NCBI GenBank assembly: GCA_005882115.1
Contig: VBEG01000031.1
Location: forward strand, 1-46,431
Source: Chloroflexota bacterium
GTDB lineage: Bacteria; Chloroflexota; Dormibacteria; Dormibacterales; Dormibacteraceae
Reading direction: 5' to 3'
Length of the DNA: 46,431 nucleotides
In this document: piece after piece, positions 2,366 to 41,215 of the stretch
How the letters are laid out: each line of letters opens with the position of its first letter
Numbering within the stretch: the first letter of the stretch is position 1
Translations under genes and position numbers: made by a program
The notes under the pieces: generated by a model
The model's input: only the letters and a program-made list of their open reading frames with translations
The model's database searches: none
What the model was told of the DNA's origin: nothing

Positions 2366-2454
2366 AGGTCGGGCCTGCGGCCGGGACTTCTCCCACGCGG
2401 GGCCGCCCCATCCCCGGCTGCGGCCGGGACTTCCCCACAAGTGGGGAAGAGTTG
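2366..2454. repeat. Double-hairpin palindromic repeat: one good copy (2410-2454) preceded by a degenerate copy
   Basis: The good copy has a GC stem (CCGGC-TGCG-GCCGG), the spacer GA, a second stem CTTCCCCA-CAAG-TGGGGAAG, then AGTT. Just before it, 2371-2401 carries a decayed version (GCCTGCGGCCGGGACTTCTCCCA) missing its right arm. Compared with the copies at 6639, 6705 and 16512, the second stem has changed on both sides (CTTCCCCA/TGGGGAAG versus CCTCCCCA/TGGGGAGG), so pairing is kept. Confidence 0.75.
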
Positions 2455-5745: not shown

Positions 5746-7056
5746 CTAGTAGACCGGCGTCTCCAGGCTGACGGCCTCCAGCCACTTCCGGCACGAGGTC
5801 AAAAAGCGCGCCGCCTGCAGCCCGTCGAGCACCCTGTGGTCGAACGAGAAGCAGAGGTACATCATCGGCTTGATGCCGATCATCCCGTTGACCGCCATCG
5901 GCCGGTCCACGATGGCCTCCATGGTCAGGATCCCGGCCTGACCGGGGTTGATGACCGAGTAGCTGAACAGGGTGCCGAAGGTGCCCGAATTGTTGACCGT
6001 GAAGGTCCCACCGCTCAGCTCGTCGGCTTTCAGCTGCTTGTTGCGGGCTCGGGTCGCGAGGTCGTTGACGGCCCGCGCGAGACCGGCGATCGAGAGGCCG
6101 TCGGCCCGACGCACGACCGGAACGAGCAATGTGTCCTCCAGTCCGACGGAGATGCCGAGGTTGATGTCGCGGTGGACGATCAGCTCCGTCTCGTTAAACG
6201 AGGAGTTGACCTCGGGATGCTCGCGCAACGCGGAAAGGGCAGCCGCCATCACGTACGGCAGGTAGGTAAGCGAGAAGCCTTCCTGCTTCTGGAACGCAGC
6301 CTTGTTCGCGTTGCGGTTCGCGACCACGCCTGACATGTCCACCTCCTGCGTCTGCCAGGCATGCGGGATGGTGCTTTTGGACCGCGTCATGTTCTCGGCG
6401 ATCAGGCGGCGGACCCGGGTCAGCTGGACGACCTGGTCGCCCTCACCCGGAGCGACCGATGCGGCGGGAGCCGGGCGCGCCGCAGGCGCGGCCTTTGCGC
6501 TGGCGGCGAAGTCCTGGACGTCTTTCTTGGTGACGCGGCCGCCGAGGCCGGTGCCAGTCACTTGCGATAGGTCGACCTTCAGGTCCGATGCGGCCATCTG
6601 GACACCTGGCGAGTACCGGTGCGGCTCGCTTGGTGCGGGCCCCTCCGCCGGCTTCGCCGGCACCTCCCCACCAGTGGGGAGGAGTTGCTCCTTCTCGACC
6701 TTCCGCCCCTCCGCCGGCTTCGCCGGCACCTCCCCACCAGTGGGGAGGAGTTTTTCTTCTTTCGGCGCCGGGGCGGGAGCTTCCGGCGTCGCGGTCACCT
6801 TGCTGTCGCCGCCGGTCTCGACCACGGCGATCTCGGCGCCGGCCTGAACGGTCTCGCCTTCCTTGGCCAGGATCTCGCGCAGGATGCCCGAGACGGGCGC
6901 CGGCACCTCGGCGTTGACCTTGTCCGTATCCACCTCGAGCATCGGCTCGAACTCGACGACCTGGTCGCCCGGCTTGACGAGCCAGCGCGAGATGGTGCCC
7001 TCGTGCACGGATTCGCCGAGCTGGGGCATGACGACCCTGGTGGTCTTGCCGGCCAT
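5746..7056 (-). CDS. 2-oxoacid dehydrogenase E2, dihydrolipoyl acyltransferase
   Basis: 436 residues from ATG 7056. Order: lipoyl domain (about 5-80, lipoylated Lys46 in EVDTDKV), a Pro/Ala linker, peripheral subunit-binding domain (about 147-185, RYSPGVQMAASD...GRVTKKDV), then the catalytic domain (about 205-436) ending with His407 and Asp411 in FDHRVLDG. It transfers the acyl group from lipoyl to CoA in the pyruvate or branched-chain 2-oxoacid dehydrogenase complex. The start overlaps the E1 stop by one base (TGATG). Unusually, the linker contains two in-frame copies of the genome's palindromic repeat, reading LLPTGGEVPAKPAEG at residues 103-117 and 125-139. The substrate (pyruvate versus branched-chain) is not settled. 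Confidence 0.92.
   Translation of the reverse strand: MAGKTTRVVMPQLGESVHEGTISRWLVKPGDQVVEFEPMLEVDTDKVNAEVPAPVSGILREILAKEGETVQAGAEIAVVETGGDSKVTATPEAPAPAPKEEKLLPTGGEVPAKPAEGRKVEKEQLLPTGGEVPAKPAEGPAPSEPHRYSPGVQMAASDLKVDLSQVTGTGLGGRVTKKDVQDFAASAKAAPAARPAPAASVAPGEGDQVVQLTRVRRLIAENMTRSKSTIPHAWQTQEVDMSGVVANRNANKAAFQKQEGFSLTYLPYVMAAALSALREHPEVNSSFNETELIVHRDINLGISVGLEDTLLVPVVRRADGLSIAGLARAVNDLATRARNKQLKADELSGGTFTVNNSGTFGTLFSYSVINPGQAGILTMEAIVDRPMAVNGMIGIKPMMYLCFSFDHRVLDGLQAARFLTSCRKWLEAVSLETPVY
6639..6687. repeat. Double-hairpin repeat, copy inside the E2 gene (second in protein order)
   Basis: Plus-strand order: GCCCCTCCG, stem CCGGC-TTC-GCCGG, CA, stem CCTCCCCA-CCAG-TGGGGAGG, AGTT. It is read in frame on the minus strand as QLLPTGGEVPAKPAEG (residues 124-139 of E2). 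It is nearly identical to the copy at 6705-6753, with 66 nt (22 codons) between equivalent positions. Confidence 0.9.
6705..6753. repeat. Double-hairpin repeat, copy inside the E2 gene (first in protein order)
   Basis: Same 48-49 bp unit as 6639-6687, read on the minus strand as KLLPTGGEVPAKPAEG (residues 102-117 of E2). The 17 nt between the two copies encode the charged bridge RKVEKE, so the pair arose by tandem duplication or two nested insertions without breaking the frame. Confidence 0.9.
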
Positions 7057-9119
7057 CAGAACGCCGCCAGGTCCTTCAGGACCTTGGTGATCTTGTCCGG
7101 CGTCGGCATGAAGTACTCCTCCATCGGGATCGCGTACGGCATCGACGGCACGTCGAGCCCGCCGAACCGCTTGACCGGCGCGTCCAGCCAACGCCACGCC
7201 TCGTCTGCGATCAGGGCCGCGACTTCCGAGCCGATCGAGACACTGAAGTTGTCCTCATATAGGACAAGGCATTTCCCGGTTTTGCGGGCGGACGCGGTGA
7301 TCGCTTCCTTGTCCAGGGGGTAGACGGTCCGCAGGTCGATGATCTCCACGCTCACGCCGTCCGCCACGAGATTCTTCGCCGCCTCGATCGCGTAGTGCAC
7401 CATCAGCCCGTAGCAGAAGACCGAGATGTCGGTGCCCTCCCGGGCTGTGCGCGCGACCTGCAGCGGGATCAGGTACTCGCCCTTCGGCACGGGCTCCTTG
7501 AACATCCGGTAGAGGCGCTTGTGCTCGAAGAAAAGCACCGGGTCCGGATCGCGGATCGCCGCGAGCAGCAGTCCCTTCGCTTCGTAAGGCGTGGAGGGGA
7601 TCACGATCTTCAAGCCCGGCGTCGCGAAGCGCGCCTCGATCGACTGCGAGTGGTACAGGGCGCCGTGCGCATGTCCGCCCATCGGCGCCCGGACAACCAG
7701 CGGAACCGACCAGTCGCCGTCGCTGCGATAGCGATACTTCGCGATCTCGTTGGTGATCGAATTGAATGCCATGTGGGCGAAGTCCGTGAACTGGATCTCG
7801 GCCACAGGCCGCTTACCTGCGATGGCCAGGCCCAAGGCCACCCCCGCGATGGACGACTCGGCCAGCGGCGTGTCGATCACGCGCGCCTCGCCAAACTTCG
7901 CGCGCAGCCCATCGGTGACGAGGAAGACGCCACCTTTCTTGCCGACGTCCTCGCCCAGCACCATCACGCGCTCGTCCCGGTCCATCTCTTCGGTCAGCGC
8001 CGAGCGCAGCGCCGCGACCATGTTCATCTCCTCGGTCTCGACGCCGCTGGCGGGCTCGATCGCCTTCGGCGCCTCGACCGCGTACACGTTGGTCAGCGCG
8101 TCCTCAGGCTGAGGGTCCGCCGCGTCCATGCCCGCTTTGGTCGCCGTGGTGACCTCTTCCTTGACGCCTTCCTCGAGCTCGGTGACCTGCTTGGCGGTGA
8201 GCACGCCCTCCTCGATGAGCCGCTTCTTGAACCTCTCGAGGCAATCGCTCTCGGCGAGCTTATCGATCTCTTCTTGGGTCCGATAGCGGCGCTGGTCGTC
8301 CTCGGAGGAGTGGGCGCCGAGGCGGTCGACGAGGCACTCGATCAACGTCGGCCCACCGCCGGCGCGCGCCTGGGCGACGGCTTCTTTGGCCACGGCGTAG
8401 CAGGTGACCGGATCGCGGCCATCAACTGTCACTCCTGGAAAGCCATAGCCAGCCGCGCGCTGCGCGACGTGCTGGATTGCGTATTCCTTCTGAAATGGCG
8501 TAGAGATCGCAAAGCCGTTGTTCTCGCAGACGAAGACCTCCGGCAGCTTGTAGATCGCCGCGAAGTTGAACGCTTCGTGCGCGTCCCCCTCAGCGCCAGC
8601 GCCCTCGCCGTAGCAGGTCATCAGCACCTTATCGGTGCCGTCCATCTTCAACGTGTACGCAACGCCGGCTCCGCGCACCATCTGCGTCGCGACGGGCGAG
8701 CCCCCCGACGTGATGTTCAGCCGAGAGTCCGAGAAGTGGCCCGGCGTCTGCTTGCCGCCGGAGGAGGGATCGCCGGACTTGGCGAGAACCGCAAGCATGA
8801 GGTCCAGCGGGGTCATGCCCATCCTCATGCAGAGCACGACGTCTCGGTAGTAGGGCGCAAGCCAGTCGTGCTTGGGCTTGAGCGGCCAGCCAACGCCGAT
8901 CTGCGCGGCCTCGTGCCCGGCGCACGAGATGATGAAGGGCGCTCGGCCCTGCCGGTTCAGAACCTGGAAGCGATAGTCGATCTGGCGGCCGAGCAGCATG
9001 AAGTGGAACCACTCGGTGAGGATGTTCTCGTCGAGGTCGGTATCGCGCCAGGCGACCGGATCCTGGAAGCGCCAGTCAGGGCTGAACGAGGGGTCCTTCG
9101 TTCTCGTCGACTGGGCCAT
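7056..9119 (-). CDS. 2-oxoacid dehydrogenase E1, alpha and beta subunits fused
   Basis: 687 residues from ATG 9119. The alpha part (about 1-345) has the thiamine diphosphate site GEGAGAEGDAHEAF (171-184) ending CENNGFAIS (198-206) and the heterotetramer-type SAGHEAAQIG region. The beta part begins near residue 364 (EMNMVAALRSALTEEMDRDERV), with LGEDVGKKGGVF and the C-terminal SIGSEVAALIADEAW. A charged, Glu-rich linker joins them (about 305-360). It decarboxylates the 2-oxoacid and loads the lipoyl group of E2. Most bacteria of this E1 type encode the two subunits separately; fused forms are known. It starts 5 nt after lpd and overlaps E2 by one base, giving the order E3-E1-E2. Confidence 0.92.
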   Translation of the reverse strand: MAQSTRTKDPSFSPDWRFQDPVAWRDTDLDENILTEWFHFMLLGRQIDYRFQVLNRQGRAPFIISCAGHEAAQIGVGWPLKPKHDWLAPYYRDVVLCMRMGMTPLDLMLAVLAKSGDPSSGGKQTPGHFSDSRLNITSGGSPVATQMVRGAGVAYTLKMDGTDKVLMTCYGEGAGAEGDAHEAFNFAAIYKLPEVFVCENNGFAISTPFQKEYAIQHVAQRAAGYGFPGVTVDGRDPVTCYAVAKEAVAQARAGGGPTLIECLVDRLGAHSSEDDQRRYRTQEEIDKLAESDCLERFKKRLIEEGVLTAKQVTELEEGVKEEVTTATKAGMDAADPQPEDALTNVYAVEAPKAIEPASGVETEEMNMVAALRSALTEEMDRDERVMVLGEDVGKKGGVFLVTDGLRAKFGEARVIDTPLAESSIAGVALGLAIAGKRPVAEIQFTDFAHMAFNSITNEIAKYRYRSDGDWSVPLVVRAPMGGHAHGALYHSQSIEARFATPGLKIVIPSTPYEAKGLLLAAIRDPDPVLFFEHKRLYRMFKEPVPKGEYLIPLQVARTAREGTDISVFCYGLMVHYAIEAAKNLVADGVSVEIIDLRTVYPLDKEAITASARKTGKCLVLYEDNFSVSIGSEVAALIADEAWRWLDAPVKRFGGLDVPSMPYAIPMEEYFMPTPDKITKVLKDLAAF

Positions 9120-16511: not shown

Positions 16512-16560
16512 GCCCCTCCGCCGGCTACGCCGGCACCTCCCCATGAATGGGGAGGAGTTT
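16512..16560. repeat. Double-hairpin palindromic repeat in a convergent intergenic gap
   Basis: GCCCCTCCG, stem CCGGC-TAC-GCCGG, CA, stem CCTCCCCA-TGAA-TGGGGAGG, AGTTT. It is the same length as the E2 copies and fills most of the 62-bp space between the stops of the exported protein and sufT. Position and paired stems suggest it could act as a two-way transcription terminator or mRNA end stabiliser; there is no long T-tract. Confidence 0.85.
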
Positions 16561-41005: not shown

Positions 41006-41187
41006 GCCCCTCCCTTGCCCTCCCCGTAAACGGGGAGGGGTCTGGAGTCGTGGTTGTCGCCCTGAGACTAGTTGCTTTCCCCATGGACGGGGAGGGGTCT
41101 GGAGTCATGGGTGTCGCCGTGAGACGAGTTGCTTTTTCCCATAGCGCCCCTCCCTTGCCCTCCCCGTAAACGGGGAGGGGTCTGGAG
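41006..41187. repeat. Cluster of three hairpin repeats (second repeat family) before rplU
   Basis: Two identical 42-mers (41006-41047 and 41146-41187) carry the 9-bp stem CCCTCCCCG-TAAA-CGGGGAGGG followed by GTCTGGAG. Between them lies a weaker copy (about 41078-41104, CCCCATGGACGGGGAGGGG). The flanks are also duplicated: GTCGTGGTTGTCGCCCTGAG (41048) and GTCATGGGTGTCGCCGTGAG (41105). This fills most of the 231-bp gap 40993-41223. It may terminate the preceding module or be a mobile repeat. Confidence 0.85.
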
Positions 41188-41209
41188 AAGTTCGTTCCGA
41201 GAGGCTTGG

Positions 41210-41215
41210 TACAAT
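41210..41215 (+). promoter_or_regulatory. Putative -10 box (TACAAT) of the rplU operon
   Basis: TACAAT ends 8 nt before the GTG of rplU and there is no ribosome binding site between; the clearest leaderless-type promoter in the window. Confidence 0.5.

Follow-up and report, generated by a model that had tools for sequence, protein, structure and literature searches.

Palindromic repeats that colonise proteins in frame are known above all from the intracellular genus Rickettsia. The RPEs and WPEs of Rickettsia and Wolbachia are dispersed palindromes that lie between genes and also in frame within many unrelated conserved genes, where they are tolerated, their effect in Rickettsia genes being near-neutral (PMC2229807, PMC10969869). 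GTAG REPs are short multicopy palindromes that are sometimes found in frame within genes, including DNA-repair genes (PMC3733652). CGTC REPs have no associated transposase, possess intragenic copies and are abundant in Alphaproteobacteria, and some Rickettsia RPEs belong to them (PMC3733652). Di Nocera and colleagues described REPs of both types inside genes of several bacteria, noting DNA-repair genes among them, suggested linkers and loops as neutral REP sites, and reported one same-site case, in recB of two Xanthomonas species (PMC3733652). In-frame intragenic repeats are thus a known phenomenon, and cases from Opitutus terrae, Thauera and Xanthomonas, among others, were published in 2013 (PMC3733652). 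These three are high-GC bacteria. A preliminary description of the locus studied here, made from the sequence alone, had stated that no case was described in such a high-GC bacterium; this statement failed. In the literature searched, which left out most subscription journals, we found no description of repeats of this kind in Dormibacterota.

The window analysed here, a stretch of 46,431 nt, corresponds to contig C136 in the 3.36-Mb draft genome of a Candidatus Dormibacterota MAG (G000). It had been described as carrying a palindromic unit twice inside the gene for the E2 component of a 2-oxoacid dehydrogenase complex, in frame and in the linker between the lipoyl and subunit-binding domains, and once more between genes. 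All of this held. The E2 gene (5746..7056, minus strand, 436 aa) encodes a lipoyl domain (Biotin_lipoyl, 6823..7035, residues 7-77), an E3-binding domain (E3_binding, 6514..6615, residues 147-180) and a catalytic acyltransferase domain (2-oxoacid_dh, 5770..6438, residues 206-428), an order that meets the E2 acyltransferase architecture in Pfam. Since Pfam places these domains on either side, both copies fall within the flexible lipoyl/E3-binding linker (6616..6822, minus strand), taken as the stretch between Pfam domains. The nearest named E2 matches are from soil MAGs labelled Chloroflexi or Candidatus Dormibacterota. An AlphaFold prediction of E2, made from a shallow alignment, had a mean pLDDT of 38 and was useless. 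Immediately upstream, E1 alpha and beta are apparently fused in one 687-aa ORF (7056-9119, minus strand), which overlaps the E2 start (TGATG).

The two E2 copies (6639..6686 and 6705..6752, plus strand, E=6.7e-12 each) are 48-nt, two-hairpin elements, identical in sequence, orientation and frame, with a start-to-start distance of 66 nt. Both read LLPTGGEVPAKPAEG on the minus strand in the E2 frame, and their identity ends precisely at the element boundaries. The intergenic copy (16512..16559, plus strand, E=8.1e-13) is 92% alike to them and lies directly past a stop codon, with convergent genes on either side, while a weaker relative of the CCCCATCCCC... subfamily (2405..2453, plus strand, E=1e-6) has flanks of low coding score. 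Three core matches were found in the window vs none in shuffled windows. Each copy is predicted to form two hairpins, of 6 and 8 bp (z ~ -4.6), and an Rfam scan of the window was without match. Two further features were observed: a half element at 194-212, in which the second hairpin end alone (CCATAAATGGGGAAGAGTT) is recognisable, and another palindrome (CCCTCCCCGTAAACGGGGAGGGG, common tail) with three copies at 41015-41211, 57 and 83 nt apart.

From 35 copies in this genome and its relatives we derived the consensus GCCCCTCCGNCGGCTNCGCCGNCACCTCCCCATGAATGGGGAGGAGTT, with 46-, 48- and 50-nt subfamilies that have termini and architecture in common. The first hairpin is supported by covariation: pair 10/22, both positions of which were unconstrained in the search pattern, is G-C in 15 sequences, C-G in nine and U-A in eight, and the covariation score of this hairpin was reached by 0 of 500 shuffles. 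The preliminary description had suggested searching the genome and its relatives with the unit. A covariance model gave at least 82 matches in the own genome at E<=1e-4 (at least 114 at E<=0.01) and at least 1,013 in the genus (17 genomes, ~48 Mb), or roughly one per 48 kb; the genus figure sums per-genome counts, each a lower bound, since at most 145-150 candidates were scored per genome. All genomes are MAGs. Sister genera yielded 0 to 34 matches each, and a plasmid search gave weak look-alikes only. A codon-bias screen placed few copies within genes, the element being mostly outside them. Neighbours within 150 nt are mostly head-to-tail (45 direct vs 18 inverted pairs), and the most frequent kind of cluster is a head-to-tail pair at 43-148 nt. 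One tandem cluster (G013:C106:119989-120635; L256/L170) comprises seven or more 48-nt elements, with spacings of 116, 90 and 45 nt. The unit is thus dispersed, and it is very likely a GC-rich, REP-like mobile repeat that has expanded in one Dormibacterota genus.

This repeat resembles RPEs in occurring in frame in unrelated conserved genes whose orthologues are uninterrupted or different. It differs from them in its unit, which measures 46-50 nt and forms two hairpins that are short and GC-rich, whereas RPEs are ~105-150 bp long, in its host, a soil phylum rather than intracellular bacteria, and in its reuse of the same sites across species in four genes. We conclude that it works like RPEs, yet is a separate repeat; the Rickettsia precedent invoked in the preliminary description held as an analogy of behaviour. 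Unlike GTAG REPs, it has no unpaired GTAG (GTRG) end, its ends being GCCCC and GGAGTT, and it forms mostly head-to-tail clusters, whereas in GTAG dimers a head-to-head or tail-to-tail arrangement prevails. It also lacks a RAYT gene: Y1_Tnp (PF01797; Y1/RAYT) was absent from all 17 genus genomes, the own genome included, while control genomes responded. A RAYT/Y1 transposase was therefore rejected as the mover. The repeat shares with CGTC REPs the lack of an associated transposase and the presence of intragenic copies, but it has no unpaired CGTC end (CGNC lies inside hairpin 1, where N is paired and can be C, G or T), it has two hairpins, only the second of them with an 8-bp stem, instead of a single 8-9 bp stem, and its clusters are head-to-tail. 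It differs from a MITE in that its ends are not mutual inverted repeats and that no target-site duplication accompanies a 48-nt gain in MutM. Look-alike two-hairpin repeats are present in IMG/VR contigs (L369-L386, GC 0.64-0.75), and share the CCCTCCGNCGGCTNCGCCGNCACCTCCCC core of our repeat, in most cases with a GGGGGAGG arm after it; one 8.3-kb contig (L376) has four copies. Their second loop is CACA instead of ATGAAT and their flanks differ, and they could represent either a wider repeat type or convergence, host and descent not being established.

The E2 orthologues, whose comparison had also been suggested, show that the linker is anything but constant. Between conserved flanks, it is radically different among the 14 E2s of the genus, where copies vary in orientation, frame, subfamily and number. 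The E2 of G001 has one copy encoding the same peptide as in G000, and this common copy differs at two sites, both synonymous. The linker of G009 combines one antisense and one sense copy, those of G013, G003 and G005 carry pairs in other combinations, and that of G016 has a single sense copy. Overall, 12 model matches at E<=1e-4 fall in eight of the 14 linkers, with a ninth genome at E=0.003, the chance expectation from mean density being ~0.06 matches in 2.8 kb. No significant covariance-model match was detected in sister-genus E2 linkers. A second palindrome, CCCTCTCCCC-loop-GGGGAGAGGG, is likewise repeated genome-wide, at up to 43 sites in a genome; its family fills seven of the 14 E2 linkers as PSPPRGEGRGEG-like peptides, sometimes with the same loop version as that genome's other copies.

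One could argue that this is an ordinary Pro/Ala-rich E2 linker that looks repetitive by chance, or an ancient common linker peptide, as E2 linkers are generally Pro/Ala/Glu-rich, those of the sister genera included. However, at the DNA level the E2 copies match, at E ~ 1e-12, a structured family found throughout the genome, the E2s of relatives hold different copies, and the same DNA element is present in CarB, MutM and oligopeptidase B. The dispersed copies and the uninterrupted sites described below refute this explanation, which is practically excluded. The case that would have refuted a mobile repeat, namely the same peptide in all relatives and no copies elsewhere, failed on both counts: copies are found genus-wide and the E2 linkers differ.

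Occupied and uninterrupted sites could be compared in three further genes. The CarB site is the junction of the two halves of the protein, where the stretch between TPYYY and RIGQG measures exactly 25 residues in 11 of 17 orthologues. Inserts are clear in five of the 17 (G000, G011, G013, G005 and G015), representing three subfamilies and both orientations, and G014 has a degraded-looking stretch at the insert site. The MutM site is the beta-hairpin turn before HLGMTG, which comprises 10 residues in eight orthologues and 26 in G002, G010 and G001; the gain of 16 residues is exactly 48 nt, without target duplication. Other inserts occupy this turn in G000, G004, G006 and G009. An AlphaFold model of the MutM of the own genome (shallow alignment, mean pLDDT 53) places insert residues 70-98, which score below 50, between two predicted strands, and offers only weak, model-based support for this position. 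The oligopeptidase B site carries inserts in G006, G012 and G016, and in G009 it holds two copies that lie 66 nt apart; it is uninterrupted in G003, G005, G007, G008, G011 and G013. Alignment to solved relatives places the MutM insert in a turn, the CarB insert at the inter-half junction and the oligopeptidase B insert in a loop, with gaps or loops at these positions. Since orthologues with an uninterrupted site exist for all three genes, insertion is the derived state. These sites strengthen the mobile-repeat interpretation of the preliminary description, which held. In CarB and oligopeptidase B, part of the original loop is missing with some inserts, and template switching or later trimming is therefore possible. 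What moves the element has not been identified: there is no linked transposase and, in the cleanest case (MutM), no target duplication, and flanking residues have been lost at some sites. The absence of Y1/RAYT raises the question of how such short repeats move.

On a 20-genome tree, the minimum number of changes is four for CarB, four for MutM, three for oligopeptidase B and five for E2. The matched lineages are not independent and some nodes are weak; the differing subfamilies and orientations suggest that the actual numbers may exceed these minima. The first three genes were picked for inserts already seen there, and their rates should therefore be regarded as upper-end examples. The phase that is Arg-rich or contains stops is used in only one of 26 in-frame copies, and the core proteins around the inserts are still highly conserved; together, the rarity of the disfavoured phase and this conservation support a selective filter. 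The stop-free minus-strand frame, which had been presented as special, is not: it follows from base composition, since 85% of random 48-mers with a matching composition are open in at least five of six frames. This control limits the case for a filter, and we accordingly rejected the idea that the element is specially designed for coding.

Our analysis shows dispersal of the repeat, derived insertion, in-frame reading and reuse of the same sites in E2, CarB, MutM and oligopeptidase B. The reading that we favour (probability of about 0.9, in the absence of expression data) is that a REP-like repeat spreads continually and persists in genes only when it is in frame at a tolerant linker or loop. 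Insertion would be frequent and roughly blind. Copies that break the frame or hit a folded core would be lost by purifying selection, whereas in-frame copies in a disordered linker or surface loop would be nearly neutral and persist. As only the latter would survive, a few permissive sites would be hit repeatedly, and such hits would become lineage-specific Pro/Gly/Ala/Glu-rich inserts. In the E2 of the window, insertion would thus have produced two 16-residue inserts.

A bolder reading would hold that same-site reuse goes beyond passive tolerance, the element targeting particular DNA sites in these genes or its hairpin being selected at domain boundaries, for instance for paced translation. 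We consider it unlikely; if true, the element would be a mobile module by which protein linkers are rewritten throughout a genus. A related alternative is a function at the nucleic-acid level (a ribosome-slowing mRNA hairpin or a protein-binding DNA site), with boundary positions selected and not merely tolerated. The strong hairpins, the location of the E2 and CarB copies precisely between domains and the reuse of the same sites by independent lineages speak for it. Against it, the copies of MutM and oligopeptidase B are in loops, that of MutM within a domain; the copies are free to differ in orientation, subfamily and number, and are absent from many orthologues; and the MutM copy of G001 has substitutions in the hairpins, yet its reading frame is kept. 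Such a function therefore appears improbable. Still less credible is the idea that the inserted peptides are adaptive, a longer E2 linker altering, for example, the reach of the lipoyl arm. Some inserts have been inherited by descent (MutM in G001, G002 and G010; E2 in G000 and G001), and the changes in the E2 pair insert are synonymous, though they concern two sites only. However, most inserts are lineage-specific and varied in sequence, the insert of the MutM pair has undergone amino-acid changes, and the enzymes hit are unrelated.

Under the favoured reading of blind insertion and selective persistence, the origin of the second E2 copy remains undecided. It could have arisen by local duplication of the first, through slippage or gene conversion, and not by a new insertion. 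The two copies are 100% identical, head-to-tail pairs are the commonest arrangement in this family, and the oligopeptidase B pair of G009 has the same 66-nt spacing; on the other hand, identity stops at the element ends, without a duplicated flank. We see no reason to prefer one origin over the other. Pairs at 66 nt were observed in two unrelated genes, oligopeptidase B (L329) and the E2 of the window (6639-6752), and the spacer peptides of both pairs are short and rich in Lys, Glu and Gln (RKVEKEQ and QVQGKEK).

The recurrence of insertions at the same sites, in several genes and throughout one genus, is probably new; the novelty lies in the presence of the repeat family in an uncultured phylum and in the extent of same-site recurrence. 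The Dormibacterota case concerns GC-rich soil bacteria, several subfamilies and core enzymes, with presence and absence resolved among species. As the repeat inserts repeatedly, in frame, at the same flexible spots, these natural insertions mark places in proteins that tolerate additional residues. Hits at one site in separate lineages amount to a natural insertion scan of protein tolerance and provide a test bed for linker and loop growth.

The coding-score screen gave false and duplicate candidates, and we therefore name only genes supported by Pfam and claim only the four with orthologue comparison. The remaining candidates, supported by Pfam domains without orthologue comparison, include a CcdA/DsbD-like protein, a DsbH/YyaL-like thioredoxin protein, two UvrD-like helicases, LysE, GlgE, MalQ, and O-antigen ligase-like, VTT-domain and AlkZ-like proteins. 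The two UvrD-like helicases are 28% identical over their aligned part and are therefore different paralogues. In-frame copies were observed in several DNA-repair genes, namely MutM, the two UvrD-like helicases and the AlkZ-like protein (L163, L157, L285, L239); although the numbers are small, the presence of such genes among the hosts echoes the bias reported in 2013 (PMC3733652).
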